A DNA stretch of 40,610 bases. Source: Clostridiales bacterium (lineage in GTDB: Bacteria > Bacillota > Clostridia > Saccharofermentanales > Saccharofermentanaceae). The position numbers and the translations under genes are program-made. Each line of letters opens with the position of its first letter. The first letter of the stretch is position 1. Below are positions 2,874-35,361 of the stretch, one piece after another. The notes under the pieces are model-generated. The model ran no database searches. It worked only from the letters and a program-made list of their open reading frames with translations, and had not been told where the DNA came from. The DNA is taken from the NCBI GenBank assembly GCA_017550385.1, contig JAFZPJ010000056.1:1-40610 (forward strand). The letters are read 5' to 3'.

Positions 2874-2914
2874 TAACAGTGTTACATCGTGTGGTCATGC
2901 ATAGAGAGGGGCAT

Positions 2915-3955
2915 ATGGGATATGTAAAGAAGAGCATCGCTGCAGTGCTGATGACGACAATGGTCTTAAGTGCAGCTTCCTGCTCGATATTTGATAATAA
3001 GTTCGCTACGACGCAGACGTATTCTGCGATCAAGGATGATGCATACAAGTCCAAGTCTGACATCGACAAGGACGACGAAGGCATCTACATGAAGACAGTT
3101 GCAGGCGTCATAAAGTATTTGGACAAGGGCGATGCGGACGGACTTTCAAAGCTCTGCTGTGACGGGCTTCTCGATATGGACGGTACCGATGATGAGCTTG
3201 AAGCTATGGCGGACGGATTTGAAGGCAAGGTAACCGATACTACCCCCATCGGTACGGATCTCGGATCCAGAGGATTTGCCCAGTGGTCCGGCAGCGAACC
3301 CGTAGCCTGCTATGACGGGTGGTGCTATATCTATACGGATGAGCAGACATACTATCTGCGTATTTCCATGTGTTCCGTAAACAAGAAGGATGATGACGGT
3401 GATGATTCCGTAGGCGTGTGCATGATCGAACTGATGACCATCGATATGAAGTATGACTTAGAGAGAACAGGTGTTCCTGAAGAAGAGGACGTTCCCGAGT
3501 ATGTGGCCACTTATGTTTTCGGAGACGGTTCTTCGGAAGACGTACCATTCCGCCTGGTCGGCATGAACTACTGCGGTATCGTCTCGGCTTTCGGTGACTG
3601 CGAAGGATATACCATAATCGATACGGCAATAGGTTACAGTTATAACGTTTATAAGCTGACCGGCACAGACGATGAGATAGACCTTGATGATGTTAAGTAT
3701 CTTGATATGGATGATCCGGAAGAGATGTATGAGTTTTTTGCAGAGTACGAACAGTATGCCGTGGAAGAGAACGACGGATATAATTACTTCTACAACATCG
3801 AAGGCAAGGATGACGAGAAGCTCCTTGTGTGGGTGTACGGCACTCACGGGGATGACGATGTTCCGTATGTGGCCGGGATACAGGTGATGGATATCACCAA
3901 GCCGTATAACGACCAGAAGAGAGAAGAGATATATAACAGCAAGAATAAGAGTTAG
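2915..3955 (+). CDS. Putative lipoprotein, function unknown
   Basis: A 346-residue secreted protein with a lipoprotein signal: K5-K6, hydrophobic run, then LSAASC with the candidate lipidated Cys at 23. The start at 2915 is preferred over an upstream in-frame start at 2879 because a purine-rich ribosome site (GAGAGGGG, about 2904) precedes it and the signal peptide begins there. The mature part is very acidic (many Asp/Glu clusters) with beta-type segments such as ATYVFGDGSSEDVPFRL and an IQVMDITKPYND end. I recognise no domain. It is followed by a strong bidirectional terminator shared with the convergent ABC permease gene. Probably anchored on the outer face of the cell membrane. Confidence 0.8.
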   Translation: MGYVKKSIAAVLMTTMVLSAASCSIFDNKFATTQTYSAIKDDAYKSKSDIDKDDEGIYMKTVAGVIKYLDKGDADGLSKLCCDGLLDMDGTDDELEAMADGFEGKVTDTTPIGTDLGSRGFAQWSGSEPVACYDGWCYIYTDEQTYYLRISMCSVNKKDDDGDDSVGVCMIELMTIDMKYDLERTGVPEEEDVPEYVATYVFGDGSSEDVPFRLVGMNYCGIVSAFGDCEGYTIIDTAIGYSYNVYKLTGTDDEIDLDDVKYLDMDDPEEMYEFFAEYEQYAVEENDGYNYFYNIEGKDDEKLLVWVYGTHGDDDVPYVAGIQVMDITKPYNDQKREEIYNSKNKS

Positions 3956-3972
3956 CCGATAAGCAAACAAAA

Positions 3973-3996
3973 ACGTCCCGGAGCGATCCGGGACGT
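3973..3996. terminator. Bidirectional intrinsic terminator
   Basis: A perfect 10-bp stem (ACGTCCCGGA / TCCGGGACGT) with a GCGA loop. It is followed by CTTTT on the plus strand and by TTTTTG on the minus strand, and sits between convergent genes. The GGA-GCGA-TCC apex is identical to that of the hairpin at 9548-9569. Confidence 0.85.
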
Positions 3997-4009
3997 CTTT
4001 TAACTTAAC

Positions 4010-6613
4010 TCACTCAACCGACTTCAGCGCATCCGTCAGCGGTATCTTCTTGATCCTCATGATGTCGAAGAACGACACGATGAAGTACGAGATAAGCATT
4101 ATTCCGATCATCTTCAGGATACTGATAAAGCTTACATATATCTCGATCCAGCCGCTCATCGAATACATGATGACGGCAAAGATAGCTGTCAGACCGATAA
4201 CGGAAAGGGAAGCTGTCGCTACGGCGAAGATCACCACCACTCCTGTGGTCAGATTGACGTACAGGCTGTTGATCTCGCGGTTCTCGTAGCCGAGCACTTT
4301 GACCATCGATATCGATGTCGCATTCTTCTCGATGATGATCTTCGTGAGCAGATAGATTACCAGGATTCCGATGAGAAGACATGCGAACGATACGTAATCC
4401 ATATAATTGCCCATCGAATGATCGATCTGAGTCGACAGCGACATGATGTCTTCTCTTGTTACGACCGTATAGATCATATCCTCATCGATGTCAGTGATCT
4501 TCCCGGACGACAGGAATCCGGTGAAACTGTCCTCGTCCAAGTCAAAACAATCATTGTATTCATCATTTCTCATAAAGACGGCGAGACCGCCCATGTATGA
4601 ATACACGCCCTTGACTTCGAACGTATACGTCTTGTCCGAGTACTTCTCTTTCAGCGTGATGGTGTCGCCTTCGCGCAACAGGAACTTGTCAGCATATGCA
4701 CTCGATATGAGCACGCCGTCATCGGGAAGATCCGCCCTGACATATCTGCTGTCATCTTCGATGCCGTAGATCGTGATGCCTTCACCTTCTCGGACACCGT
4801 TAACGGTCTCCAAAGAACTCGTGGAGAACTTCTCAGCGCCCTCGGTATCGGTCGTTATGACATTGCCGTCCTCATCCTCATAATCCATGAGGATGTACTG
4901 GTATTCGGAGATCAGTTCGCTGGTCATCACACGCTTGTAGTGATCGAGCGTCTCTGGAAGGCCGATCGAGAAAGACAGCAACAGCATGACGAAAGCAATT
5001 CCGAAGAAGAGTACGACATAGCTTCCGAGATTCTGCAGGAGGATCCTCAGGCGGAAACGGCTGAAGAACTTGAGCCTCGGCAGACGTACTGCCTTCTTTC
5101 TTTTCGATGTGGACAGATCCCTTCTGAGGAACTTCAGAGGCGACAGCCTCATCTTCCTAACGATGATGATGAGGTTGATGATGAACATCAGCGCGAGCGG
5201 TATGAGAGTCGTGTTGACGAAAGCCTCCGCGTTCCATATGGTCTCGTATGTGGGCAGGCTGTACGAGTTGTAGTACATGCTGACTACCGTATCCTTGAAG
5301 AGCGTGTAGCCGAGAAGGTTACCCGTGACCGCCGACAGGAGCGTAACGATGACCGGCATCATCATGTAGTAGAAGGTGAGCTCGCCCCTGGTGTAGCCTG
5401 TCGCCCTGAGAGTGCCGATGACCGCGGCTTCTTTGGTGATCGTGTTCGATGTCGTTATCGCGAAAACGAACGCCAGCACCGCGATGAACACGTACACGAG
5501 TACGCCCATCATCGCGACGTCCGAGCCGAAATCCTCAGGCGCGAACTGTATTGCCTGATTGGCATATGAGGGCAGGAAGTCGACCAGCTCGTTGGTATTG
5601 TCTTCGTAGGGCTCTAACGCTTCGAGCTTGTCTACTGTCTCGTCGATCTTGTCCTGCTCTGCGGCGAGCGCATCGGCGTCTGCCTGAAGCGCGTCCGCAT
5701 CTTCCTGAAGGGAAGCGGCTTCAGCGAGCCACTCCGGGTCGCCGGCGAGGACCTTATCATAGTTTGCCTCGAGCTCAGCGGATCTTTCCTCGAGTTCTTC
5801 TCCGCGGGCTTCCAAGTCGTCTGCCTGCTCCTCGATGCCTTCGAGATATGCTGTCCATTCGTCGACGTTGTCTGCAAGCTGCTCGGCCTCATCCTTGTCG
5901 TCCGTGTAACCGCCCGTAGCCGCGATGACTGCGGCCTGCTCCATCAGATCGTCGCTCCACTCCTTCTCTTCGTATTCCGAGGCAGGAACCGTATCATATC
6001 TGAATGCATACTGGTATTTGACGTTGCCGGGGAGGTTTTCCCAGCCCTCTTCCGTTACGAGCGCCACGTCGAAATCAATGGCGTTGAACATTATGTCCGA
6101 GTTCTTCTTGAACAGCGTGCTGTAATCGGGGAGTGCGATGAAGCCTACAACCTCGAGTTTCACGCCGTTTACCGTGATCGTATCGCCGATGCTTAAACCG
6201 AGGTTATCTGCATGCATACGGTCGATAGCGATCTCGTCCTTGCCTTCGGGGAGACGGCCTTCGATAACACTTGCGATGTTGAGGTCTTCTCTTATCTTGA
6301 ATACTCTTACTACCGCATTGTCATTGCCGTCAGACACCTCGGGCACTTCCTTGTAGAACTGCTCATAGAGGGTGACGTTATCGGGCATTGCGGCAAGCAG
6401 TTCTTCGGTAGGTTCTTCCTTGAACTCGATATGTCCGTCTTCTCTGTTGTATTTGTCGTAGGATTCGTCAAATGCCTTGAGCATGCTGCCGTTGGCGACA
6501 TACATGCCCGATGCCGTGCCTATCATGAAGCTCATGAGAAGGAACAGCACCACATATCTCTTCCACTCCTTCGCCAGGTCGCGAAGGATCCTTTTGTTGA
6601 TAGGGTTTCTCAT
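4010..6613 (-). CDS. FtsX/MacB-type ABC transporter permease with extracellular coiled coil
   Basis: An 867-residue ABC3-type permease. An N-terminal membrane helix (YVVLFLLMSFMIGTASGMY) is followed by a large extracytoplasmic region and an Ala/Glu/Asp-rich heptad stretch (about residues 245-340) that should form a coiled-coil hairpin. Then comes a first FtsX core (MMGVLVYVFIAVLAFVFAITTS onward), a second helix and extracellular domain, and a second FtsX core (SFACLLIGILVIYLLTKIIIEKN to the end). The ATG at 6613 is chosen because AAGGGGG lies just upstream; a TTG at 6631 is in frame but poorer. It partners the ATPase gene, whose TAA lies just upstream of this start. Family role: mechanotransmission or export of lipids, peptides or antimicrobials rather than bulk import. 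Substrate unknown. Confidence 0.92.
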   Translation of the reverse strand: MRNPINKRILRDLAKEWKRYVVLFLLMSFMIGTASGMYVANGSMLKAFDESYDKYNREDGHIEFKEEPTEELLAAMPDNVTLYEQFYKEVPEVSDGNDNAVVRVFKIREDLNIASVIEGRLPEGKDEIAIDRMHADNLGLSIGDTITVNGVKLEVVGFIALPDYSTLFKKNSDIMFNAIDFDVALVTEEGWENLPGNVKYQYAFRYDTVPASEYEEKEWSDDLMEQAAVIAATGGYTDDKDEAEQLADNVDEWTAYLEGIEEQADDLEARGEELEERSAELEANYDKVLAGDPEWLAEAASLQEDADALQADADALAAEQDKIDETVDKLEALEPYEDNTNELVDFLPSYANQAIQFAPEDFGSDVAMMGVLVYVFIAVLAFVFAITTSNTITKEAAVIGTLRATGYTRGELTFYYMMMPVIVTLLSAVTGNLLGYTLFKDTVVSMYYNSYSLPTYETIWNAEAFVNTTLIPLALMFIINLIIIVRKMRLSPLKFLRRDLSTSKRKKAVRLPRLKFFSRFRLRILLQNLGSYVVLFFGIAFVMLLLSFSIGLPETLDHYKRVMTSELISEYQYILMDYEDEDGNVITTDTEGAEKFSTSSLETVNGVREGEGITIYGIEDDSRYVRADLPDDGVLISSAYADKFLLREGDTITLKEKYSDKTYTFEVKGVYSYMGGLAVFMRNDEYNDCFDLDEDSFTGFLSSGKITDIDEDMIYTVVTREDIMSLSTQIDHSMGNYMDYVSFACLLIGILVIYLLTKIIIEKNATSISMVKVLGYENREINSLYVNLTTGVVVIFAVATASLSVIGLTAIFAVIMYSMSGWIEIYVSFISILKMIGIMLISYFIVSFFDIMRIKKIPLTDALKSVE

Positions 6614-6624
6614 GCCGCGCCCCC

Positions 6625-7344
6625 TTACCAATCAAGCTCTGTCGCGCTGATCTTTTGTTCGTTGACGATGTTCTTTCTTACGACGCCGTCACGGAGCTTG
6701 ATCACGTGGTCTGCCATGCCTTGGATCGCATTGTTGTGGGTGACCATGATGACCGTGTTGCCGTACTTCTGATTGACGTCTTCGATGAGCTTTAATATCT
6801 CTTTGGAAGTGTTGTAGTCGAGCGCTCCCGTAGGCTCGTCACACAAAAGGATGTCGGGATTCTTTACGATGGCGCGGCCGATCGATGTTCTCTGCTGCTG
6901 GCCGCCGGATAACTGGTTGGGAAGCTTGTATCTGTGATCCCAGAGCCCAAGTGTATTAAGGAGCTCGTCGATATCAAGGGGAGAGTCGGACAGATACGCG
7001 CCGACTTCGATGTTCTCTTTTACGTTCAGGTTGGGAATAAGGTTGTACAGCTGGAAAACATAACCTAAGTGCTTTCTCCTGTATCTGGTGAGCGTCTTCT
7101 CATCCATGTCGCGAAGCTTGTCTCCTGCGATCGAGATGTACCCGTCATCCGCGCTGTCGATGCCTCCTATGATGTTGAGAAGGGTGGACTTACCCGACCC
7201 TGACGGCCCGAGAAGGACGCAGAACTCGCCCTTTTTGACCGTGAAGTCCATTCCTCTCAGGACTTCCTGTCTGCTGTCGCCTTCGCCGAAAGCCTTGTAG
7301 ACATTGCAGACATTAAGGAATTCTTGAAGTTCTTTTTCTGACAT
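6625..7344 (-). CDS. ABC transporter ATP-binding protein (MacB/LolD-like)
   Basis: A 239-residue nucleotide-binding subunit. Visible motifs: Walker A GPSGSGKST, Q-loop YVFQLYN, signature LSGGQQQR, Walker B ILLCDEPTGALD, and switch His in VTHN. The EPTGALD form is typical of the MacB/LolD/FtsE class that pairs with FtsX-type permeases, and the permease follows directly. The start at 7344 is preferred over an in-frame ATG at 7371 because GAGGTGAT sits five bases upstream of it. The gene lies about 45 nt downstream of a near-consensus promoter with a palindromic operator, and further downstream of a candidate Mn2+ riboswitch with terminator. Both may control this two-gene operon. Confidence 0.95.
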   Translation of the reverse strand: MSEKELQEFLNVCNVYKAFGEGDSRQEVLRGMDFTVKKGEFCVLLGPSGSGKSTLLNIIGGIDSADDGYISIAGDKLRDMDEKTLTRYRRKHLGYVFQLYNLIPNLNVKENIEVGAYLSDSPLDIDELLNTLGLWDHRYKLPNQLSGGQQQRTSIGRAIVKNPDILLCDEPTGALDYNTSKEILKLIEDVNQKYGNTVIMVTHNNAIQGMADHVIKLRDGVVRKNIVNEQKISATELDW

Positions 7345-7395
7345 TAAAATCACCTCGTGTCTTTCTGACATATGAATACTTGCTCATATGTGCAT

Positions 7396-10339: not shown

Positions 10340-11881
10340 TCATAGCTCCTCTCCGATGTACTTCATGCAGAGCATCGTAATGTCGTCGAACTGCTGGGCG
10401 CCGCCTGTGAACTTGTTGATCGCGTCCTTAACGTTCCGGTCGAGCGACGAGACGTCACCTTCGTAAGGAAGGTTGATCGCATCGAGCATCCTGTCTTCGC
10501 CGAAGAACTCGTTGCTGCCGTTGGTGGCTTCCGTAACGCCGTCCGTATATACATATATCATATCACCCGGATTAAGAGTCAGCTGCTTCTCTTTGTAGGG
10601 GATGCCTTCCATGCAGCCGAGCGGAGGCGAGTGGTGTTCCTTGATGAGTTCAAACTTGCCGTCCTTCCTCTTGATGGCGGGATACTCGTGTCCTGCGTTG
10701 GCATATCTGAGTTCGCCCGTAGAGATCGTCAAAACGCCGATCCAGACAGTTACGAACATGCCGAGTTCGTTGCCTTCGCAGAGCTGGTCGTTAACGGTGG
10801 AGAGGATCTTCGCACAATCGTCGAAGTCGGTAAGTCCTCTGTTCTTGATGAGTGTCTTGGTGACCATCATCATGAGCGCCGCGGGGATACCTTTGCCCGA
10901 TACGTCTGCTATCGTGATGACGAGGTGGTCGCTGTCAGGCATATAGAAATCGTAGAAGTCGCCGCCGACTTCTTTTGCTGCCGTCATGGATGCGTACAGA
11001 TCGAATTCTTTCCTGTCGGGATACGGAGGGAAGATATGGGGAAGCATGTTCTCCTGGATGGAGTTGGCCATACGGAGCTCGTTCTCCGATATCGATCTCT
11101 CCCTGCTCTGGAAAACGTTCAGCACGCAGTACATCAGGAGCAGCACGAGCATGATCACGGGGCTCGACAGCGACAGTCCGTAAGTGAAGACCGTGAGTAT
11201 GCCGATCGCAAGCGGGAAGAAAGCGTAGAGGAATAATGTTACTACCTGATATTTCTTGAACCTTCTCCTGGCCAGGAACACCAGGATGAGAGTAAGTATC
11301 ATGGTGACGTATGCATAGACGTTCGAGAGCAGATACCAGTCGCCGCGCGAATAGACGCCGTCGGGACTTATCGTGTAGTAGAAACCGAAGTACAGGTTGA
11401 CGACCCTTATGACTGCTGCAAGTGCCAGCCCGCAGGAGAGAATGACATTGATCGTCTTTAGATTCTTATGCTCCAATCCGAGATAGGTTATGACATATCT
11501 CCAGAACAGGAATGCCAGTACCGGTGCGCACATGTAGTACAGGGCGTTGGCGGCGGAGTTTACCATGATCTGATCCGCGTCGCCGTCGACGAGCCAGCAG
11601 ACTTCGTCAAGGAAAGAGCCGCAGAAACACGTGAAAAGCAGGAGAAGATAGTAATTCAGGTTCTCTTCGTTCTTGGACTTGTCGACGACGCTGCAGATGA
11701 AAAGGACATATCCCAATGCCATGCTGCATATATCGGCAGATACGTTGACAATGCTGACAGTCGGAAGACCTCCGCCGATAAGCACCTGCTCGAACTTATA
11801 TATGCCGAGCACTATCGTGAAGATAAAGAACAATGATGCCAGGACGGCACTGAACTGGAATTGTTTCTTACCTATGGACAT
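10340..11881 (-). CDS. Membrane SpoIIE-family PP2C phosphatase
   Basis: A 513-residue protein. The N-terminal half has about seven or eight hydrophobic segments, resembling 7TM sensor regions. After a short linker (SRERSISENELRMANSIQ) follows a PPM/SpoIIE domain with GGDFYDF, DVSGKG, YANAGHEYP, YTDGVTEA and DDIT. These contain the metal-binding aspartates. It should dephosphorylate the STAS protein in response to a membrane-perceived signal. An in-frame GTG at 11887 is possible, but AGAGG five bases before the ATG at 11881 favours the latter. An exact TATAAT (11910-11915 on the minus strand) precedes it, though I see no good -35. Confidence 0.92.
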   Translation of the reverse strand: MSIGKKQFQFSAVLASLFFIFTIVLGIYKFEQVLIGGGLPTVSIVNVSADICSMALGYVLFICSVVDKSKNEENLNYYLLLLFTCFCGSFLDEVCWLVDGDADQIMVNSAANALYYMCAPVLAFLFWRYVITYLGLEHKNLKTINVILSCGLALAAVIRVVNLYFGFYYTISPDGVYSRGDWYLLSNVYAYVTMILTLILVFLARRRFKKYQVVTLFLYAFFPLAIGILTVFTYGLSLSSPVIMLVLLLMYCVLNVFQSRERSISENELRMANSIQENMLPHIFPPYPDRKEFDLYASMTAAKEVGGDFYDFYMPDSDHLVITIADVSGKGIPAALMMMVTKTLIKNRGLTDFDDCAKILSTVNDQLCEGNELGMFVTVWIGVLTISTGELRYANAGHEYPAIKRKDGKFELIKEHHSPPLGCMEGIPYKEKQLTLNPGDMIYVYTDGVTEATNGSNEFFGEDRMLDAINLPYEGDVSSLDRNVKDAINKFTGGAQQFDDITMLCMKYIGEEL

Positions 11882-12044
11882 ATTCACCTCTGTAATCCTT
11901 TATAAAGTGATTATAAACCTTGACGTTAAGAGCGTTGATTTCAAAACAGTAAACTTTTATTGAAGAACAATGCCGGAACGCCTTGCTCCCAAGGGCTCTG
12001 TGATATCATCTCCATAAAGAAACTTATGACAGGCGGTACAGGGA

Positions 12045-15333: not shown

Positions 15334-16680
15334 ATGAAGGAAGTCTTCTTACTGGTGCGTCCGTATTACGGCGTGAACATCCATACTGATGCACAGGGCG
15401 AGTACGGGACCGTGCTCCACAGTAATGATGTCTTTCCGGACCTTCCGCTCATCAATGCCGCTACCATCCTCAATCAGTCTGAAGACCACGATGTTATCGT
15501 TCTCGACGCTTATGCCGAGAATAAGATGCTTCCTGATACTCTCCTGAAGACGATCGCTTCTATGTCTTGCGATAAGATCGTCATCAAGACCACTGCGGCA
15601 TCGGTAAGAAGCGATATCGAGCTGGTAAGAAGGATCAAGATGAGTTCTCCTGATAGCTATGTCATCGTCTCAGGGCAGGTCGTAAGCGATCTTGAGGACT
15701 GGCTTAAAGCAAACAGCGCCGCGGACCAGATCGTAACCGAGCCTCTCGACAAATACATCTACAGATATGTAAATCACAGGAACGGTACGGTAAACGACAT
15801 GCCGACGCCTGACTATTCACTCGTTAACTACAGGGCATACACGGATGACAACGGACGCGTAAGACTGACCATACAGGCTAGCCGCAGCTGCCCGATGCAC
15901 TGCACTTACTGCCCTTACACCAAGTATTACGGTGCGTATGAGTCCAGAGATGTCGACAAGGTCATGGAAGACATCAGATCTCTGGTATCGCTGGGTGCGG
16001 AGATCATCCAGTTCAGGGATCAGTTCTTCACCTGCGATAAGGAGAAGGTAAAGCAGATATGCCAAAAGATGATCGACGAGGGGATAAAGGTCAGCTGGAT
16101 ATGCGAGACCAAGATCAACAGCATCGATGAAGAACTTGCTAAGCTCATGAAGAAGGCGGGACTTATCCTCGTTTGTTTCGGCGTGGAATCCGGCAACAAA
16201 GAGATCCTTGAGACTTATAACAGCAACAAGGGCGATATCGATACCCAGAAAAGGATCGTAAAGATGCTCAAGGATAAGGGGATCCTTACGATGGCATTCT
16301 ATATCATCGGTTTCCCCGAAGACACATGGGAGACGGTGCATGCAACCTATAGGTGTGCAGAAGAGATAGACAGCGATATCGTGGCGTTCAACGAATACAC
16401 AACGTTCTATTTTGACGGCAAGGAGAACATCGATCCCGGAATATTCCGTCCCTTCGAGAATTCGACCAACGTCGACACTGACTGCAATCTCTCGCGTGAT
16501 GAGATAAGGTATGCCATCGATCTGATAAGCGCGATGTATACGGCCAATCACGACTGCCTGGAGAAGTCCTACACATTCAATCACAAGATAATGTCTGAAT
16601 ACAGGAAGAACATCGCCATGATAGCCGGCTGCGTGGAAGACCTCCAGCTGATGAGCGACAGGTTAAGGCAGATAAGATGA
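15334..16680 (+). CDS. Radical SAM protein (B12-binding-like N-terminus)
   Basis: A 448-residue protein. The Fe-S/SAM motif is SCPMHCTYC, with C186, C190 and C193 (CX3CX2C). The N-terminal about 150 residues have alternating strand-helix spacing and end in VIVSGQVVSDLEDWL, as in BchE/cobalamin-binding-like radical SAM proteins, but the B12 His motif is not evident. FGVESGNKEILETYNS and FYIIGFPEDTWE are typical SAM-domain stretches. AAGGGTGA precedes the ATG. The TGA overlaps the ATG of a MATE transporter, suggesting that the enzyme's product or its control is linked to that exporter. The reaction is unknown. Confidence 0.88.
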   Translation: MKEVFLLVRPYYGVNIHTDAQGEYGTVLHSNDVFPDLPLINAATILNQSEDHDVIVLDAYAENKMLPDTLLKTIASMSCDKIVIKTTAASVRSDIELVRRIKMSSPDSYVIVSGQVVSDLEDWLKANSAADQIVTEPLDKYIYRYVNHRNGTVNDMPTPDYSLVNYRAYTDDNGRVRLTIQASRSCPMHCTYCPYTKYYGAYESRDVDKVMEDIRSLVSLGAEIIQFRDQFFTCDKEKVKQICQKMIDEGIKVSWICETKINSIDEELAKLMKKAGLILVCFGVESGNKEILETYNSNKGDIDTQKRIVKMLKDKGILTMAFYIIGFPEDTWETVHATYRCAEEIDSDIVAFNEYTTFYFDGKENIDPGIFRPFENSTNVDTDCNLSRDEIRYAIDLISAMYTANHDCLEKSYTFNHKIMSEYRKNIAMIAGCVEDLQLMSDRLRQIR

Positions 16681-18443
16681 CGGGCAGATACGACGAGAAG
16701 ATCACCCGCAGATTATTCTTCAGCATGGTGCCCATGCAGATACTCCTCGTCATGTGCGGCGGTGTCAGCGTAATCATCGACAGTGCGTTCGCAAGTAATT
16801 TCATCGGTCCTGACGCCATGGCTGCCGCAGGCCTTTACGGTCCTCTTGCCAAGATACTTGACACGATAAATGCCCTTATGTTCGGAGGCTCGCAGATCCT
16901 GTGCGGAATGTATCTCGGCGAGAATACCTTAAAGCGCGCCAAGAGCATCTTTACGCTCGACATGATAACGATCCTCATAATCGGCATAGCAGGCACCGTG
17001 CTGTTCTTCTGCTTTCCTTCCGTGGCGGCAGGTATGTGTGTGGATCCCGCTGATCCGCTCACCGGGGATCTCATAGAATATCTCAAGGGTATCAGTACCG
17101 GCGTCATCCCGTATCTTCTCGGTACGCAGCTGACTTCATTCCTCCAGCTCGAGAAGAAGGAGAATGTCGGATACTTCGGCATAGGTGGCATGTTCGTTGC
17201 CAATGTCGTATGCAACTATTTATTCATCAACAAACTCGGCATGGGAATATACGGTCTCGGATTTGCCACGGCCGTATCCAACTGGGTGCCTGTAGTGATC
17301 TGCGGTGCGTACTTCCTGAGCAGGAAGGCCCTTTTCGCGCCGGACTTTACGGACCTGCACATAAGAGATCTGGCGGATGTCGCCAAGAAAGGCTTTCCCA
17401 TCGCGGGAACGCAGTTCATGCTCGCTTTCAAAGGCATACTGCTCAATGCGATCATACTTAGGTTCGCAGGCAGCGAAGGCCTTGCGTCATTCGTCGCGGT
17501 CAACTCTTTCGGGTATGTGTACTGGGCGGTGCCCGCAGGCATGTCGTCTGCAATGGTGACGCTCGCGAGCGTATATACCGGCGAGAAGGATAAGAGCGCG
17601 GTGGAACTGCTCATGAGGATATATCTGAGGAAGGCCGTTCCCATAGTGGCGGGCGTCGCGGTGGTGCTGTCGCTGTTCGCATATCCGCTGACGAATCTGT
17701 ACTTCCACGATCCATCGAGCGCCATCTATAAGATGACTCTGCTTGGCTTTGTCCTATTCCCGCTGTACACGCCTTTCTCGACGTTCGTGGTAGGCATGAG
17801 GGATCTGTGGCGCTGCATGGATCACAAGATAGCGGTGAATGCCATAGTCGTTTTTGACGGCCTGGTGTACGTGACGGCATTGTCGTATGTCCTGTCGAAC
17901 TTCTTAGGCATGACGGGCATATGGATCGCGCAGACCGGCGGATGCGTTCTGCTGGCGGTCACCATCTGGTTCATGGCGTGGGGGATGAACAAGAAGATCC
18001 CGAAGTCAGTTCCCGATCTTTGCTGCTATCAGGAAGGCTTCGGCGTCGATGACGATAACAGGCTGAACCTGTCCGTCCACAGCATGGAAGAGGTCATCAA
18101 CATCTCGCTGAAGGTATCGGAATTCTGTCTTGAACGCGGGATAGACAAGACCACTGCCAACCGTGCGGGACTGTGCATCGAAGAACTTGCCGGCAATATA
18201 GTCATACACGGCTTCCAGGGCAAGAAGGATGCTTCGGTCGATATCAGCGTGACCAAGTCTGACGAAGGCCTGCTGATCAAGTTCAAGGATAACTGCGTGC
18301 TGTTCAACCCGACCGAACTGGATACCATCTTCCATCCCGAGGATCCGGCAAAGAACATCGGAGTGCGCATCGTCAGGAAGTCTTGCAAAGAGATGGAGTA
18401 TCATCCGCTCCTGGGTCTTAACGTCCTGTCGATCACGATGTGA
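16677..18443 (+). CDS. MATE efflux transporter fused to an RsbW-like GHKL domain
   Basis: A 588-residue protein. Residues about 1-450 form a 12-helix MATE (NorM/DinF-like) transporter, beginning ITRRLFFSMVPMQILLVMCGG. Residues about 460-588 form a GHKL domain of the anti-sigma/RsbW kind: N box CIEELAGNIVIHGF, G1-like FKDNCVLFNPTE, G2-like NIGVRIVRKSCKEM. The G1 glycine is replaced (DNC), so nucleotide binding may be altered. The start overlaps the radical SAM stop (ATGA). Inference: a transporter whose activity or signalling output is tied to partner-switching proteins such as the STAS protein at 9597. The 3' end abuts the convergent gene at 18444 with no gap. Confidence 0.9.
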   Translation: MTGRYDEKITRRLFFSMVPMQILLVMCGGVSVIIDSAFASNFIGPDAMAAAGLYGPLAKILDTINALMFGGSQILCGMYLGENTLKRAKSIFTLDMITILIIGIAGTVLFFCFPSVAAGMCVDPADPLTGDLIEYLKGISTGVIPYLLGTQLTSFLQLEKKENVGYFGIGGMFVANVVCNYLFINKLGMGIYGLGFATAVSNWVPVVICGAYFLSRKALFAPDFTDLHIRDLADVAKKGFPIAGTQFMLAFKGILLNAIILRFAGSEGLASFVAVNSFGYVYWAVPAGMSSAMVTLASVYTGEKDKSAVELLMRIYLRKAVPIVAGVAVVLSLFAYPLTNLYFHDPSSAIYKMTLLGFVLFPLYTPFSTFVVGMRDLWRCMDHKIAVNAIVVFDGLVYVTALSYVLSNFLGMTGIWIAQTGGCVLLAVTIWFMAWGMNKKIPKSVPDLCCYQEGFGVDDDNRLNLSVHSMEEVINISLKVSEFCLERGIDKTTANRAGLCIEELAGNIVIHGFQGKKDASVDISVTKSDEGLLIKFKDNCVLFNPTELDTIFHPEDPAKNIGVRIVRKSCKEMEYHPLLGLNVLSITM

Positions 18444-24250: not shown

Positions 24251-24315
24251 GGTTGTTTTAAGGTTGATTTAAGGTAGGCTTGCTAATCTTTGCCCAAGGT
24301 AAGGAGGCAAAGACA

Positions 24316-25044
24316 ATGACATACCTTAATACATTCGAGAGATATGAGATCAAATACATCCTGACGGGTGATCAGAGAAGCAGGCTCGAATACCTGATGT
24401 CGGACCGCATGAAGATCGACCGTTACGGACATTCTACGATCCGCAATATCTATTACGATACCGACGATTACAGACTTATCAGGAATTCACTTGACAAGCC
24501 GGTCTATAAGGAGAAGCTCAGGGTCAGAAGTTACGGCAGGATCTCGGGAGAAGATGATGTTTTCGTGGAGCTTAAGAAGAAGTACGATTCCGTCGTCTAC
24601 AAGAGGAGGATCGCGCTGCCGGAGCATACGGCGTCCGGATGGCTGGCAGGAGAAGAGAAGCTGCCCACCGGATCGCAGATCGGAGACGAGATCGAATATG
24701 TCAGGAGATTCTATACCGGGATAAAGCCGAAGGCATATATCTCATATGAGAGGGAAGCCTACTATCCTACGGACGGCGAAGATCTGAGGATAACGCTCGA
24801 TTCCAACATCCTCGCCAGGGACTATGATCTGTCGCTTCTTTGCGGAGTGTACGGATCTCCCGTTATAGACAGGGACCTTACCATACTCGAAGTCAAAGTG
24901 CCGGGCGCGGTTCCGATGTGGCTCATAAGGTTCCTGGATAAGAACGGAATAAAGAAGACTTCGATATCCAAGTACGGAAGCTATTACAGGAACATGCGAC
25001 AGGCAGGTCCTGCTGATAATGAGAGAGGTGAATTATATGCTTGA
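24316..25044 (+). CDS. VTC-domain polyphosphate polymerase-like protein
   Basis: A 242-residue single VTC domain (the catalytic domain of yeast Vtc4). Visible tunnel-lining residues: K in RYEIKYIL, IYYDTDDYRLI, K-L-R-V-R-S, ELKKKYD, KRRIAL, SYEREAYY, LRITLD, ILEVKVPG and the end motif TSISKYGSYY. All basic and acidic positions expected for metal-nucleotide polymerisation seem present. The ATG at 24316 has AAGGAGG eight bases upstream. It overlaps the DUF4956 gene by 8 bp. Bacterial VTC proteins often travel with DUF4956 and beta-helix or CotH proteins, as here. Whether this one makes polyphosphate is not proven. Confidence 0.92.
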   Translation: MTYLNTFERYEIKYILTGDQRSRLEYLMSDRMKIDRYGHSTIRNIYYDTDDYRLIRNSLDKPVYKEKLRVRSYGRISGEDDVFVELKKKYDSVVYKRRIALPEHTASGWLAGEEKLPTGSQIGDEIEYVRRFYTGIKPKAYISYEREAYYPTDGEDLRITLDSNILARDYDLSLLCGVYGSPVIDRDLTILEVKVPGAVPMWLIRFLDKNGIKKTSISKYGSYYRNMRQAGPADNERGELYA

Positions 25045-25714
25045 GACATTAATGGGAAACACTACGATATCACTGACGGATTTTCTGCTGCCGGTAGGCG
25101 CATCGCTCGTTCTGGGGCTTATCATCTCGCTGGTGCACATGTATAAGAACCGCTGTACCGGGAGTTTCCTCGGGGCGCTTGCTCTGCTTCCCGCGATAGT
25201 CTGCGCGGTGATAATGGCGGTGAACGGCAACATCGGTGCGGGAGTCGCAGTCGCGGGAGCGTTCAGTCTGGTGAGGTTCAGGTCGGCGCCGGGAACGGCA
25301 AGAGAAATCACGGCCCTCTTTACGGCGATGGCTGCGGGTCTGATGACGGGAATGGGATTCATATTATATGCGGGGGTATTTGTTCTCGTGATCGGAGGTG
25401 CGACGCTTGTGTGCCGGTATCTGGAACTGAGCTCTGACCGCGCGGCGGACCTTCGAAGGAGCCTTCGCATTACGATCCCGGAAGATCTTGATTATACGGG
25501 TGTCTTTGACGATATCCTTGCCGAGTACACGAAGGAGCATAAGCTCATCTCATCCAAGACGACCAATATGGGTTCGATGTTCAAACTGACTTATGACATC
25601 ACGCTTGATAAGAACAGGAGCGAGAAAGAATTCATAGATAAGCTCAGATGCCGTAACGGCAATCTCGAGATAGCCATATCGGCAGTAAAGGTCAATGAGG
25701 ACCAGCTGCTCTGA
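25037..25714 (+). CDS. DUF4956 membrane protein
   Basis: A 225-residue protein. Four or so N-terminal hydrophobic helices (LLPVGASLVLGLIISLV, ALLPAIVCAVIMAV, GVAVAGAFSLVRFRSAPGTA, FILYAGVFVLVIGGATLV) precede a cytoplasmic alpha/beta domain of about 95 residues. The loop GAFSLVRFRSAPGTAREI is the DUF4956 signature. The start ATG at 25037 has AGAGGTG upstream and lies within the VTC gene. Its partnership suggests it couples VTC polymer synthesis to the membrane or to export, which is inference. Confidence 0.9.
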   Translation: MLETLMGNTTISLTDFLLPVGASLVLGLIISLVHMYKNRCTGSFLGALALLPAIVCAVIMAVNGNIGAGVAVAGAFSLVRFRSAPGTAREITALFTAMAAGLMTGMGFILYAGVFVLVIGGATLVCRYLELSSDRAADLRRSLRITIPEDLDYTGVFDDILAEYTKEHKLISSKTTNMGSMFKLTYDITLDKNRSEKEFIDKLRCRNGNLEIAISAVKVNEDQLL

Positions 25715-25730
25715 GAAAGGAGTAAACACC

Positions 25731-26897
25731 ATGAAGAACATAAAGATAAGAAAACTCATATCAGGCGCCGTGGCGGCAGCTCTGAGCCTTGCCCTGCTCG
25801 CGGGTTGTGCGGCAGGTGCCGTATCCGAGACGGTAAACTCCGAGAGCGCTTCCGAAGCTGTCCTTCAGGAGCCAAGCTACAGTGAAGAGGAAACTCCGCT
25901 CATTGATATATCTGACGGATCTTATGTCGATATTGCCGCAGGCGGAACGTACATCATAACGGGCGAGTCTTCAGACTGCGGCATAACGGTGGATGCCGGT
26001 GATGAAGATGTGCAGCTGGTCTTAAGGGATGTATCTCTGACATGCACTGATTCGGCAGCGATAACAGTGCTCTCTGCAGGAGAGGTAACCATCACTCTGG
26101 AAGGCAGTAATTACCTTGCAAACGGCGGTCAGTTCGTATCAGTCTCTGACGAGGAGATCGATTCGGTGATCTTCTCGAAATGCGATCTTACGGTCAGCGG
26201 CAAAGGAAGCCTCGAGATATCGTCTCCTTCAGGTAGCGGGATCGTCTGCAAAGACAATATGGTGATCACGGGCGGATCTTATGTTATCGAAGCGTCTGAT
26301 GACGGCATCAACACAAATGATTCGCTCCTTATAACAGGCGGAAGCTTTACGATAGATGCAGGTGACGATGCCATCCATACGGACGGAACTCTGGACATTA
26401 CCGGCGGCACAATGGATCTTACGGCAGCCGAAGGCCTTGAAGGCACACAGATCGTGATAGACGGAGGCGAGATAACGATATCTGCCACAGACGACGGCAT
26501 CAATGCCGCACAGAAGACTGAGGACATGGAAGTCTTCGTTGAGATCAACGGAGGTACCATAACGGTCACCATGGGACAGGGAGATACTGACGGTATCGAT
26601 TCCAACGGAGACATTACCATAGCAGGCGGAACCGTCGACATAACGGGAATGTCAGCAGTCGACTATGACGGAACCGCGGTCCTTACGGGAGGCACGCTGA
26701 TCATCAACGGAGTTGAGTCGGATACCATTCCGAATCAGGAGATGGGCGGCGCCGCATCTGTAGAAGGCACTCTTCCTGAAGGTGAACTGCCCGGAGAACC
26801 GCCGTCGGGCGAAGTTCCCATGGCAGGTCCCGATGGCGGCTTCCCTCAGGGTCAGCCTCCGGAAGGTGATCCTCCGCAGGGCATGCTCCCGGGATGA
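25731..26897 (+). CDS. Beta-helix lipoprotein (carbohydrate-binding DUF4353 / Cthe_2159-like)
   Basis: A 388-residue lipoprotein with signal peptide and lipobox LLAGC. The body is a right-handed beta-helix built of repeated turns of the type ITGGS-T-DA-DDGI (for example SDDGINTNDSLLITGGSF, AGDDAIHTDGTLDITGG, ATDDGINAAQ, TDGIDSNGDITIAGGT). These D-D/G-I turns match calcium-coordinating loops of the Cthe_2159 cellulose/pectin-binding family. The tail (about 330-388) is Pro/Gly/Glu-rich with PEGELPGEPPSGEVP repeats, probably a wall-spanning or flexible segment. AAAGGAG precedes the ATG. It belongs to the VTC operon. Confidence 0.9.
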   Translation: MKNIKIRKLISGAVAAALSLALLAGCAAGAVSETVNSESASEAVLQEPSYSEEETPLIDISDGSYVDIAAGGTYIITGESSDCGITVDAGDEDVQLVLRDVSLTCTDSAAITVLSAGEVTITLEGSNYLANGGQFVSVSDEEIDSVIFSKCDLTVSGKGSLEISSPSGSGIVCKDNMVITGGSYVIEASDDGINTNDSLLITGGSFTIDAGDDAIHTDGTLDITGGTMDLTAAEGLEGTQIVIDGGEITISATDDGINAAQKTEDMEVFVEINGGTITVTMGQGDTDGIDSNGDITIAGGTVDITGMSAVDYDGTAVLTGGTLIINGVESDTIPNQEMGGAASVEGTLPEGELPGEPPSGEVPMAGPDGGFPQGQPPEGDPPQGMLPG

Positions 26898-30073: not shown

Positions 30074-31207
30074 ATGGAAAGACTTAAGACTGCAGGCAAA
30101 TACATATTGAATTTCCTGATAATCCTCGCGATCGGGGCGCTCTCGCTGTTCCTGTCGGTAGGATCCGAAGGGGAGGCCTTCCTCGATGCGCTGGTGACTT
30201 CGGATAAGAGGTTCATCCTGGTAATGGCGGGACTGATGCTCTGCTATTACCTGATCGATGCGCTGATACTGTTCATCATATGCAAGGACCTCAAGTACCG
30301 CATTACCTATAAGCAGTCGTTCGTAACCAACATGACGGGCGTGCTCTTCTCGGACCTTACGCCGTCTTCTACTGGCGGACAGTTCGCTCAGGTATATGTA
30401 TTCCATAATCAGGGAGTTCCGGCAGGCATCGCCTCGGGCATCCTTGCCATGTGCTTCGTCACATACCAGATAGTCATCATCGTCTATGCGACGATTGCGA
30501 TGCTCTGCAACCACAACGTTATCTTCGCCAATCAGCAGACGACCGTCATAGCTGTCGTCGGATTCATCGTAAACGTGGTCATCACGGGCAGCTTCTTCCT
30601 TGCCACCAAGCTTAAGAAGGTGCATACATTCCTTACGGTAAGCTGTCTTAAGTTCCTTGAGAAGATCCACCTCGTAAAGGATTACGACAAGACTTCAAAG
30701 TCGGTCAACAAGGCCTTCGAGGAATTCAGGAACGTATCTTCCATACTGTTCTCCAGGAAGGCTCTCTTTGCTAAGGTCTGCCTGTGCCATGCACTCAAGC
30801 TCACGCTTCTTTATTCGGTACCGTTCTTCGCTGCGCTGTCGCTCAAGGTGCCGCTCACGGCTTCAAACTATCCGAACTTCCTGTCTCTGGCGGCTGCCAT
30901 CAGCCTGTTCAATACGTTCATGCCGATCCCCGGCGCATCGGGCGGAAGCGAGGCAAGCTTCATGCTTTTGTTCGGATTCCTCGGACAGGCTACGGCTTCT
31001 TCTGCGATGCTCATCTGGAGAATGCTCACATTCTACTTCGGCCTGCTCATCAGTATCCTCATCGTCGCGTTTGCAAAGGATACGAAGGGCGGCATCATGA
31101 AAGGCATCAAGGAAATGGAAAAGGCCCAGGACGAAGAGTTGTCGTCCCAGGCCGGTCCTTCTGTTATCAAGCCTGAAGATATACCGTCAGACGGCGATAG
31201 CAAGTAA
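30074..31207 (+). CDS. UPF0104 / LPG-synthase-TM-like flippase domain protein
   Basis: A 377-residue polytopic membrane protein of the YbhN/AglD2-like superfamily (the membrane part of MprF). About eight helices and the conserved PIPGASGGSEASF motif and DLTPSSTGGQ loop are visible. In MprF this domain flips lysyl-phosphatidylglycerol; free-standing copies accompany glycosyltransferases and are thought to translocate lipid-linked products. It follows a GT2 gene with a four-base gap. No lysyl-transferase domain is attached. The 3' end overlaps convergent mgtE by 21 bp. Confidence 0.9.
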   Translation: MERLKTAGKYILNFLIILAIGALSLFLSVGSEGEAFLDALVTSDKRFILVMAGLMLCYYLIDALILFIICKDLKYRITYKQSFVTNMTGVLFSDLTPSSTGGQFAQVYVFHNQGVPAGIASGILAMCFVTYQIVIIVYATIAMLCNHNVIFANQQTTVIAVVGFIVNVVITGSFFLATKLKKVHTFLTVSCLKFLEKIHLVKDYDKTSKSVNKAFEEFRNVSSILFSRKALFAKVCLCHALKLTLLYSVPFFAALSLKVPLTASNYPNFLSLAAAISLFNTFMPIPGASGGSEASFMLLFGFLGQATASSAMLIWRMLTFYFGLLISILIVAFAKDTKGGIMKGIKEMEKAQDEELSSQAGPSVIKPEDIPSDGDSK

Positions 31208-32739: not shown

Positions 32740-35361
32740 ATGGATCTGGCCACGATACTGTATACGCTCCTAATAAAGCCGCTTGTTCTGCTGTTTGAGG
32801 TCATATTCGTAATCGCGAACCGCGGGCTTAACAATCCGGGCTTGTGCATTGTGGTGCTGAGCCTCGCGATGAACCTCCTCGTTCTTCCCATCTACCGTAA
32901 GGCCGATGTCATCCAGAAAGAAGAGCGCGATCTCGAAGAGAAGATGAGCGCCACAGTTGCCCACATCAAGAAGGTCTTCAAGGGCGATGAGCGCTTCATG
33001 ATCCTTCAGACATACTACCGTCAGAACAACTACAGTCCGCTCTATACGCTTAAGAGCCTTCTGCCGGTCATACTGCAGATCCCGTTCTTCCTTGCGGCTT
33101 ATACTTTCCTGTCTAATCTCGAAGTTCTCAAGGGACTTGCATTCGGACCTCTGAAGGATCTCGGTGCACCGGACGCTCTTATAACTCTGGGCGCCGTCAG
33201 CATCAACGTGCTTCCCATCCTGATGACTCTCATCAATGTCATATCGGGACTCATCTATACAAAAGGCCTGCCCGTAAAGACGAAGGTGCAGACATTCCTT
33301 ATCGCGGCAGTCTTCCTCGTATTGCTCTACAATTCGCCGTCAGGCCTTGTCTTCTACTGGACCCTGAACAACGTGTTCTCTCTGGTCAAGAATATAGTTG
33401 CGGATAAGGCCGACAGTACTAAGAAGGCAGCAGCCGTCGATACCAAAGAACAGAAGAACATACATACCGTTGCTTTCTTTGCATCTGCTGCTTTCTTGGC
33501 CGTTCTGACGGGACTATATATCCCTTCGGGAGTGCTTCAGGTCTCGACCGAAGAATTCGTCAATACGAGCCAGATATTCTCGCCCAATGACCTTGTGTTC
33601 CAGAGCGCGTTGCTTGCTGCAGGCGTTTTCGTACTGTGGGGAGGCGTGTTCTACCTGATGTCAGGAGGAAGGGTAAGGACATACTTTGCGTATGTGATGC
33701 TCTGCCTGGCGTTTGGCGCTGCAGTGAACTTTTTCGTTTTCGATGCGAAGCTCGGGTTTATGTCCAGCATGCTGCAGTACGACAAGAATCCGGAGTACGA
33801 CCCCGTGGGACTGATAATAAACCTTGCAGTGGTGGCGGTGCTGCCTGCAGGGATCGTCTTTGCCTATAAGAAGGTTCCCAAGATCGTGCAGAGCGTCGTT
33901 CTTGCCGGCGTTCTTGCCGTAGGCGTTCTGTCTGTTAGGAACTGCATCAATATCGACGAAGATTACAGGATTTATCTCAGTTATAACCAGATGCATACAC
34001 TGGTAAACGAAGAAGGATACACAGACATTGTCCCCTGGACGCTGTCGACGGAGGGACAGAACGTGTATGTCCTGGTGCTTGATAAAGAAGTAGGCGCCAT
34101 GCTGCCTTATATCTTCCAGGAGCACCCGGAACTTGCCGAACAGTTTGACGGATTCACCTATTATAGCAATACTCTTACATACGGACCTTATACGAACTTC
34201 GGCATGCCGGCAGTATACGGAGGCTATGAATATACTCCGTCTATGTTCAACGAAAGGTCTGACATGACGATCCCCGAGAAGCATAACGAAGCCTTGAAGG
34301 TAATGCCGGCGCTGTTTGCAGAGAACGGGTACAACGTTACCGTGGTGAATCCGACATACGCGAATTACCAGTGGATCCCCGATACTTCTATCTTTGACGG
34401 CATGGAAGGCATCACGGTCTACAACACGGGCAATTACTTCAATCCGTTCAAAGAGACTTATAACGAGAACTACTTTGCCATGATGACCAGGAACCTCTTC
34501 TGCTACGGTCTGTTCAAGTCGTCTCCGTGGTTGTTCCAGCCGCTGCTGTATGATTTCGGCAGATATAATTCCGTTCTTGATCTGACTGACATAACCCAGC
34601 TGATAGGAGGGACTTCGTACTCCGACGGCTTCCTGTACCCGTTTATGAGCGAGTACTATGCTCTAGGCGCGATGCCGGAACTCACCGAGATCGTGGATGA
34701 TGACAGTTATAATTTCGTTATCTTTACGAACAAGACTCCGCACGATACCATGCTTCTCTTGGAACCATCGATGGAGCCCTGCAGACATGTTGATAATTCC
34801 GCATACGATGAGGATAACTATTGGAGATTCCTGTATAACGGAGTGCAATTCATTGCTGAGGACGGCGAACAGTACGCAGGTTATCAGTCCAATGCCGCGG
34901 CTCTCATCCAGATAGGGAAGTGGCTTGTGTATCTGCAGGAGAACGGAGTCTATGACAATACGAGGATAATCATCGTATCCGATCACGGCAATAATCTCGG
35001 CAATTTTGAAGAGTGGCTGACAGGCGAAGACCTTAATAATCTCGATATCGAGATGTTCTCGCCGATACTGATGTACAAAGACTTCGGTTCTACGGGCGGA
35101 TTCGTAATGTCAGACGAGTTCATGACAAATGCCGATACGCCGTACCTCGCGACTAAAGACATAATCGATAACCCTTGTAATCCTTATACAGGCGTTCCTT
35201 TCAGCACCGATTACAAGAACGGGGATCAGATGGTCATAAGCTCAGACGAGTGGGATATCTTAAAGAATAACGGTTATACGTATCTTCCCGGTAACTGGTA
35301 CAGTGTCTCCAACGGAGATATGACGGATCCCGCCAACTGGACATATCAGGGCGAGTGGTAA
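32740..35361 (+). CDS. YidC/Oxa1 insertase domain fused to extracytoplasmic sulfatase/alkaline-phosphatase-like domain
   Basis: An 873-residue protein. Residues about 1-225 are YidC/Oxa1-like: LCIVVLSLAMNLLVLP, a charged cytoplasmic hairpin (QKEERDLEEKM to YYRQNNYSPLYTLKSLLPVILQIPFFLAAY), and FYWTLNNVFSLVKNI. The groove arginine of YidC aligns with N45. Residues about 240-415 add five or six more helices. Residues about 430-873 resemble the alkaline phosphatase superfamily of LtaS and sulfatases: VLVLDKE (D448), TNFGMPAVYGGYEYTP (candidate nucleophile T485), KTPHDT (H668) and IIIVSDHG (D748, H749). No cleavable signal is needed, as the last helix delivers the domain outside. Ribosome site AAGGAAT is weak and distant. 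Role inferred: envelope polymer modification. Confidence 0.85.
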   Translation: MDLATILYTLLIKPLVLLFEVIFVIANRGLNNPGLCIVVLSLAMNLLVLPIYRKADVIQKEERDLEEKMSATVAHIKKVFKGDERFMILQTYYRQNNYSPLYTLKSLLPVILQIPFFLAAYTFLSNLEVLKGLAFGPLKDLGAPDALITLGAVSINVLPILMTLINVISGLIYTKGLPVKTKVQTFLIAAVFLVLLYNSPSGLVFYWTLNNVFSLVKNIVADKADSTKKAAAVDTKEQKNIHTVAFFASAAFLAVLTGLYIPSGVLQVSTEEFVNTSQIFSPNDLVFQSALLAAGVFVLWGGVFYLMSGGRVRTYFAYVMLCLAFGAAVNFFVFDAKLGFMSSMLQYDKNPEYDPVGLIINLAVVAVLPAGIVFAYKKVPKIVQSVVLAGVLAVGVLSVRNCINIDEDYRIYLSYNQMHTLVNEEGYTDIVPWTLSTEGQNVYVLVLDKEVGAMLPYIFQEHPELAEQFDGFTYYSNTLTYGPYTNFGMPAVYGGYEYTPSMFNERSDMTIPEKHNEALKVMPALFAENGYNVTVVNPTYANYQWIPDTSIFDGMEGITVYNTGNYFNPFKETYNENYFAMMTRNLFCYGLFKSSPWLFQPLLYDFGRYNSVLDLTDITQLIGGTSYSDGFLYPFMSEYYALGAMPELTEIVDDDSYNFVIFTNKTPHDTMLLLEPSMEPCRHVDNSAYDEDNYWRFLYNGVQFIAEDGEQYAGYQSNAAALIQIGKWLVYLQENGVYDNTRIIIVSDHGNNLGNFEEWLTGEDLNNLDIEMFSPILMYKDFGSTGGFVMSDEFMTNADTPYLATKDIIDNPCNPYTGVPFSTDYKNGDQMVISSDEWDILKNNGYTYLPGNWYSVSNGDMTDPANWTYQGEW

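Follow-up and report, generated by a model that had tools for sequence, protein, structure and literature searches.

What is a protein-insertion fold doing in the same polypeptide as an enzyme of the alkaline-phosphatase (AP) superfamily? The question is raised by an 873-residue protein encoded in a contig of 40,610 nucleotides (the window, by which we mean the whole stretch of DNA that was analyzed), where a YidC/Oxa1 core that lacks the groove arginine is followed by a second membrane bundle and a large outer domain. We propose, with about even confidence, that this protein and its relatives are extracytoplasmic phospho- or phosphono-alcohol transferases that would work with a TagF-like partner protein, GPT, and whose YidC half would hold or move a loaded carrier. 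On this view, a fold that served protein insertion would have been put to a new use in decorating the cell surface. Neither a YidC–AP fusion nor its link to GPT and headgroup genes was found described in the open-access literature.

Architecture of the Fusion Protein

YAP, the name used here for the family of YidC–AP fusions, is encoded in the window at 32740–35361 of the forward strand, stop codon included, by an open reading frame that begins with ATG. Its YidC/Oxa1 core, residues 34–221 (32839–33402, forward strand), matches PF02096 at E = 3e-22, with 79.7–83.5 bits against a cut-off of 35, and profile–profile comparison of YAP against a set of 32 ordinary YidCs yields a probability of 99% and E = 7.8e-18 over 211 columns. 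PF02096 is matched by all 27 YAPs of a first alignment (A1); under the NCBIfam model TIGR03592 (yidC_oxa1_cterm) the window protein falls below the cut-off, at 78.9 versus 84.3 bits. A second alignment (A2) comprises 83 of 118 full-length YAPs of 77 loci together with the window copy. Hydropathy across these 84 homologues indicates an N-terminal hydrophobic segment, two sets of five transmembrane helices separated by a positively charged stretch at about residues 222–243, and a C-terminal AP-superfamily domain, residues 402–873 (33943–35358, forward strand), which is placed outside by the charges of the loops. The second set of predicted helices, residues 244–401, corresponds to 33469–33942 on the same strand.

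The initial annotation had described a fusion of YidC, a helical bundle, and an AP-type domain. The exact reading frame and profile searches of the separate parts bear this out, PF02096 scoring over its cut-off in the window protein and PF00884 (Sulfatase) being matched at E ≤ 0.01 in 26 of 27 YAP homologues. By sequence and hydropathy the YidC, second-bundle, and AP folds of YAP are predicted, and its predicted nature as a genuine single protein is confirmed. The fusion is not a chimera of assembly, because a relative at 87% (L047) has the same gene order and other relatives lie in contigs whose titles name a strain, Schwartzia succinivorans DSM 10502 being one.

Several other genes of the window deserve description. 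A family 2 glycosyltransferase (PF00535; 29041–30069, forward strand), which holds the same place in the gene order of L047, is followed at 30074–31207 on the forward strand by a flippase-like membrane protein of the LPG_synthase_TM type (PF03706, 92 bits; TIGR00374 over its cut-off); both are at most candidates for a link to YAP. A second open reading frame of 873 codons, at 4010–6631 of the reverse strand, encodes an FtsX/MacB-type permease and adjoins an ABC ATPase gene at 6625–7371; its equal length is coincidental. Elsewhere lie a SpoIIE-type phosphatase (10340–11887), a protein with both a MATE transporter domain and a histidine-kinase-like ATPase domain (MatE and HATPase_c_2; 16677–18443, forward strand), and a VTC-domain protein (24280–25044, forward strand) near a Cthe_2159-type carbohydrate-binding protein (25695–26897, forward strand).

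The Active Site of the Outer Domain

The residues that had been singled out as a catalytic site, D448, T485, H668, and D748–H749, are located as claimed, and none of them varies in any of the 84 homologues aligned. By analogy with the AP superfamily, Asp448 (codon at 34081–34083) and the pair Asp748–His749 (34981–34986) are predicted metal ligands, Thr485 (34192–34194) is the predicted nucleophile, and His668 (34741–34743) a predicted active-site histidine, all on the forward strand. The outer domain had been taken for a phospho- or sulfo-transferase. The intact AP-type site with its threonine nucleophile agrees with the first of these activities. Known sulfatases carry cysteine or serine as the nucleophile; sulfo-transfer, and with it identity as a sulfatase, is disfavored because threonine occupies this position in every one of the 84 sequences.

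The window protein matches PF00884 weakly, with E = 0.001 and 18.9 bits where the cut-off is 25. Of the four YAPs of its own genome, three exceed that cut-off, one of them only when in-frame neighboring matches are summed; two paralogues on another contig of this genome, C44, score 35.1 and 30.1 bits. Four of the five Sulfatase matches in the genome are YAP fusions, and the fifth is an LtaS-like protein. A profile of LtaS finds the second half of YAP, comprising the membrane bundle and the AP domain, weakly (34% probability, E = 4e-4) and the AP domain by itself with 0.2% probability; the NCBIfam LtaS model is matched by 4 of 27 YAPs, with a best E of 2.8e-4. Profile comparison of YAP with one individual LtaS-like sequence gave nothing useful. 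By topology alone, helices 244–401 are best read as the probable transmembrane part of an LtaS/EptA-like enzyme.

Distribution of the Family

The window comes from a genome of 1.85 Mb (61 contigs, completeness 84.6%) with four YAP genes, one of them cut by a contig end. In a sample of 59 related genomes, 35 of the genus and 24 others of the order, YAP is present in 32 of the former (this genome included), with 1–19 tblastn matches each, fragments counted, and in none of the latter apart from two matches at E ~7e-4 (G042 and G054), which were scored as lacking YAP. A scan of species genomes returned at least 566 YAP-related stretches. Among the matches listed, 77 loci were kept; these are not independent, several sharing a contig or a genome, and one (L074) has no YAP gene call. 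Seventy are titled Clostridia, and the rest include Schwartzia (Negativicutes), Solobacterium (Erysipelotrichia), and two Actinomycetota. Of 398 genomes sampled across the breadth of the phylum, three have YAP, the source genome included; a further match, in G317, is an ordinary YidC and was left out of the count. The survey of the fusion that had been suggested at the outset thus extends it from the genus to other Clostridia and to three further lineages. YAP is a large multi-copy family, though not a universal one, and is carried by many gut and rumen bacteria. In one locus, L057, eight YAP gene calls, some partial, form an array with a single GPT.

The Partner Protein GPT

GPT, a PF04464 protein (55.9 bits against a cut-off of 22.1), has about 430 residues and one N-terminal hydrophobic segment. 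The GPT alignment (A3) holds 35 of 59 full-length sequences and two from the source genome; compared with the PDB, the GPT profile finds TagF-like Cps3D at E = 2.6e-8 and TarL at E = 0.003. Clustering of 1095 neighbor genes, annotated through cluster representatives and for some clusters only, places GPT in 62 of the 77 YAP loci. In 54 of the 77 it is the immediate neighbor of YAP and shares its strand, and 48 of 52 GPT-to-YAP gaps measure between −4 and +15 bp; the order is reversed, GPT following YAP, in 17 further pairs. Counted by gene, 66 of 127 YAP calls have GPT directly beside them. The association extends to whole genomes: among the sampled relatives, GPT is found in 31 of 32 genomes with YAP versus none of 27 without it (Fisher p = 6e-16, or 6e-4 in the genus alone, kinship among genomes being uncorrected), the exception being G001, a genome 100% complete that has YAP and no GPT over threshold. 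Of the 398 genomes of the phylum sample, the three with YAP are also the three with GPT, one being the source genome. YAP copies outnumber GPT copies in 24 of the 62 loci that contain GPT, and the reverse is seen in none, a ratio that fits one shared donor serving several acceptors. The window YAP has neither GPT nor PEP mutase (PepM) on its 40.6-kb contig, and other loci, among them L049–L051, have YAP without GPT beside it.

So tight a linkage of the two genes would also be expected if the YidC half were a static anchor or docking platform that joins cytosolic GPT to the AP transferase and moves nothing across the membrane. Such a platform finds a parallel in another family of the order, where one protein of 768 residues unites a YidC domain with a PF04464 domain (L162 at 1546–3852, forward strand, and L163–L174). 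Matches at E ≤ 1e-20 to this second fusion occur in 19 of 38 genomes of that family; 13 of them span both parts, four are confined to the PF04464 part, and the other two are fragmentary. The groove residue is lysine in all 12 copies read, and these 12 cluster apart in the tree described below. On the other side, YAP keeps the whole five-helix core, with Asn166, Asn210, and Asn211 conserved in 84 of 84 sequences, which exceeds what an anchor would be expected to require, and in loci such as L049–L051 and in that of the window copy there is no adjoining GPT to be docked. Docking of GPT explains the data almost as well as a lipid role for the YidC half, though we rate it as rather unlikely.

Activation of Headgroups

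The proposed transferase role of YAP draws on a further set of neighbors, which would supply its donors. In the source genome, an operon on contig C44 encodes YAP, PepM, an iron-dependent-type alcohol dehydrogenase (Fe-ADH), phosphonopyruvate decarboxylase (Ppd), GPT, a VTT-domain (DedA-like) protein, and a cytidylate-kinase-like protein; the same contig also carries a divergent GPT–YAP pair. The PepM scores 398 under TIGR02320 (cut-off 319.55), its motif EDKKGLKKNS fits EDKx5NS, and the decarboxylase scores 456 under TIGR03297 (cut-off 312.5). This PepM is fused to two nucleotidyltransferase domains, both of which were identified in the homologue from L053, and PEP mutases fused to both types of nucleotidyltransferase are described in PMC6697681. 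The predicted functions of the C44 genes fit activation of hydroxyethylphosphonate with CTP.

Recognized headgroup genes occur in 26 of the 77 loci (Lic-like in 16, PepM in 9, and a CobD-like fusion in 9) and in none of the other 51, as judged from the DNA around YAP. The 16 loci have LicA-, LicC-, or EamA-like clusters, and among the clusters annotated no full LicA–LicB–LicC–LicD set was found. Two loci (L062 and L070) have choline kinase, a LicC-like protein, and EamA or BCCT transporters. In L077, an aminoethylphosphonate (AEP) aminotransferase over its cut-off occurs together with LicD, the only LicD identified among the annotated neighbor clusters. The third type, cluster c9, found beside YAP in nine loci, joins an NTP-transferase domain to a CobD/HisC-like PLP enzyme (L053 at 2733–4532, forward strand); its CobD-like part scores below the CobD cut-off, and the fusion may make and activate aminopropanol- or ethanolamine-phosphate.

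Across the relatives, PepM over its cut-off is found in 31 of 35 genomes of the genus versus 1 of 24 others. Split by YAP, the figures are 30 of 32 genomes with it versus 2 of 27 without (p = 0.03 within the genus alone); weak matches on contigs C29 of G000 and C4 of G017 were left uncounted. For choline kinase, nine of the 35 genomes of the genus and three of the 24 others have a match over the cut-off, and in five of those nine a GPT match is no more than about 7 kb away; a search of the source genome gave no match. With GPT and these activation genes as neighbors, the tie to lipid-linked surface chemistry that the initial annotation drew appears plausible.

The same neighborhood might instead belong to an ordinary glycerol-phosphate (teichoic-acid) system, in which GPT would use CDP-glycerol and YAP would be an LtaS-like glycerol-phosphate transferase. 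Membership of GPT in PF04464 and its resemblance to Cps3D and TarL agree with such a system, as do the LtaS matches of 4 of the 27 YAPs, the five helices that precede the AP domain, and a LytR-CpsA-Psr gene near YAP in L048. We nevertheless consider it improbable: among the annotated neighbor clusters no stand-alone glycerol-3-phosphate cytidylyltransferase was seen, the PF01467 domains that were seen being fused to PepM, and it is phosphonate or choline activation genes that accompany YAP in 26 of the 77 loci.

The YidC Half and Its Groove Residue

If YAP transfers headgroups, what remains to be explained is the YidC half. The predicted loss of the groove arginine, in the window copy to Asn45 (codon at 32872–32874, forward strand), holds in every homologue aligned. 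This position is asparagine in 76 and serine in 8 of the 84 homologues, arginine or lysine in none, and within A1 it is asparagine in 21, serine in 4, and threonine in 2. The corresponding column in 32 ordinary YidCs (the 30 best-scoring fetched loci plus L001 and L127) has 29 arginines, two asparagines, and one methionine.

The initial annotation took the missing arginine, in a protein tied to a transferase, as a sign that the fold had been put to another use; by itself the residue does not establish loss of the insertase function. Ordinary-length YidCs may themselves lack the arginine (Asn in L127 and L161, Met in L156), so that its absence is a weak argument by itself and was rejected as proof. 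The YidC of L127 adjoins a jag gene, recognized by eye, and is the ordinary YidC nearest the YAPs in a tree with long branches. PMC8920935 terms the groove charge strictly conserved; it also reports that E. coli YidC functions with R366A, that neutral mutants of R366 fail only if residue 517 is apolar, and that in S. mutans YidC2, which has tryptophan at the equivalent place, the arginine is essential. In YAP the partner position, as equated in our own alignment, is Trp207 in 84 of 84 sequences. Because this matches the situation of S. mutans YidC2 as given in that source, loss of insertase function in YAP is likely, to judge by the residues concerned.

A quickly computed tree of 43 of the 84 YAPs, the 32 ordinary YidCs, and 12 YidC–PF04464 fusions, with long branches flagged, puts the YAP halves in one group (SH-aLRT 100), whose stem is about 2.9 changes per column long. 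The normal YidC sought elsewhere in the source genome is present and retains its arginine, with rnpA-, yidD-, and jag-like genes recognized by eye around it, and a separate normal YidC was detected in 29 of 32 genomes with YAP. That YAP is still an insertase, serving its own C-terminal half or GPT while the AP domain pursues a separate activity, would accord with homology over the entire core and with the groove asparagine of the jag-adjoining L127 and its place next to the YAPs in the tree, yet the separate YidCs, the single long-stemmed YAP group, and the need for arginine opposite tryptophan in S. mutans YidC2 (PMC8920935) make it very improbable.

A Proposed Route for Headgroups

The steps of the preferred reading, headgroup transfer by YAP in partnership with GPT, may be set out as follows. 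Headgroups would be activated in the cytoplasm to CMP conjugates; candidates are 2-hydroxyethyl- or 2-aminoethylphosphonate, phosphocholine, and perhaps phosphoethanolamine-like groups. GPT would shift the headgroup from CMP onto a membrane carrier. Outside the cell, the AP domain, with threonine as its nucleophile, would take the headgroup off the carrier and put it onto a surface polymer, and YAP paralogues would differ in their acceptors. The YidC-like half would hold the loaded carrier or let its polar head cross the membrane, and no protein would be inserted.

These steps differ in standing. The predicted transfer role of YAP is reasonably supported, since the active site, the topology, and the gene partners all point to it. 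Loading of a lipid by GPT is suggested by the ratio of YAP to GPT and by the location at the membrane. A part for the YidC half in moving or holding lipid is suggested by the three conserved asparagines and by lipid scrambling, which PMC10491306 reports for E. coli YidC in liposomes. We infer the direction of transfer to be as proposed.

Since polymers of the teichoic-acid type are known substrates of PF04464 enzymes, GPT may place the headgroup straight on a glycan, with no lipid donor. Other observations also speak against the mechanism: 51 of the 77 loci have no recognized headgroup gene in the DNA around YAP, the window copy is accompanied on its contig by neither GPT nor PepM, similarity to LtaS is weak, and G001 has YAP with no GPT over threshold. 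More tentatively, the YidC/Oxa1 fold minus its groove charge could be a built-in flippase or scramblase that feeds a lipid-linked headgroup donor to its own AP transferase, a possibility that we hold with considerable doubt. Two separate fusions have joined a YidC domain to enzymes that handle phosphorus compounds of the surface, which argues for a functional need.

If the flippase reading is true, YAP and GPT would provide a third route, besides LicD and PptA, for surface phosphocholine and phosphonates, one that combines a CTP-activated donor with an AP-superfamily transferase; in YAP loci, CTP-activation cassettes do adjoin the gene of such a transferase. The 566 or more stretches found in species genomes, which are first recognized through the YidC half, would then code for enzymes that decorate the surface and not for insertases. 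YAP is also a natural setting in which to ask whether scrambling of lipids by purified insertases (PMC10491306) serves the cell.

Relation to Known Systems

YAP shares with the YidC/Oxa1/Alb3 proteins a PF02096 score over cut-off, the five-helix core, a cytosolic C1 region, and the 99% profile match. Unlike them, it has a second membrane bundle and an AP domain, has no arginine or lysine in the groove, and is multi-copy and encoded outside the rnpA–yidC–jag locus.

In LtaS, EptA, and OpgB a membrane bundle precedes an outer AP domain that has a threonine nucleophile and Asp/His metal ligands. YAP resembles them in each of these features, as it does PptA, an AP-superfamily headgroup transferase according to PMC10434233. 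It differs from all four in carrying a YidC half and in pairing with a GPT gene, and its similarity to LtaS is weak. GPT, for its part, belongs with the TagF/TagB-like transferases Cps3D and TarL as a member of PF04464, and is set apart from them by its length of about 430 residues, its one N-terminal hydrophobic segment, and neighbors that point to donors other than CDP-glycerol.

In the LicD route the donor is a CDP conjugate and transfer occurs in the cytosol; in the PptA route the donor is probably a lipid and transfer occurs outside. With the Lic-1 and Pnt pathways (PMC10434233, PMC6697681), some YAP loci share choline kinase and a LicC-like protein, and some YAP/GPT loci have Pnt-type genes (the PepM–nucleotidyltransferase fusion, Ppd, and AEP aminotransferase). 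Unlike in those pathways, transfer would here be split between two proteins, GPT and an enzyme of the AP superfamily.
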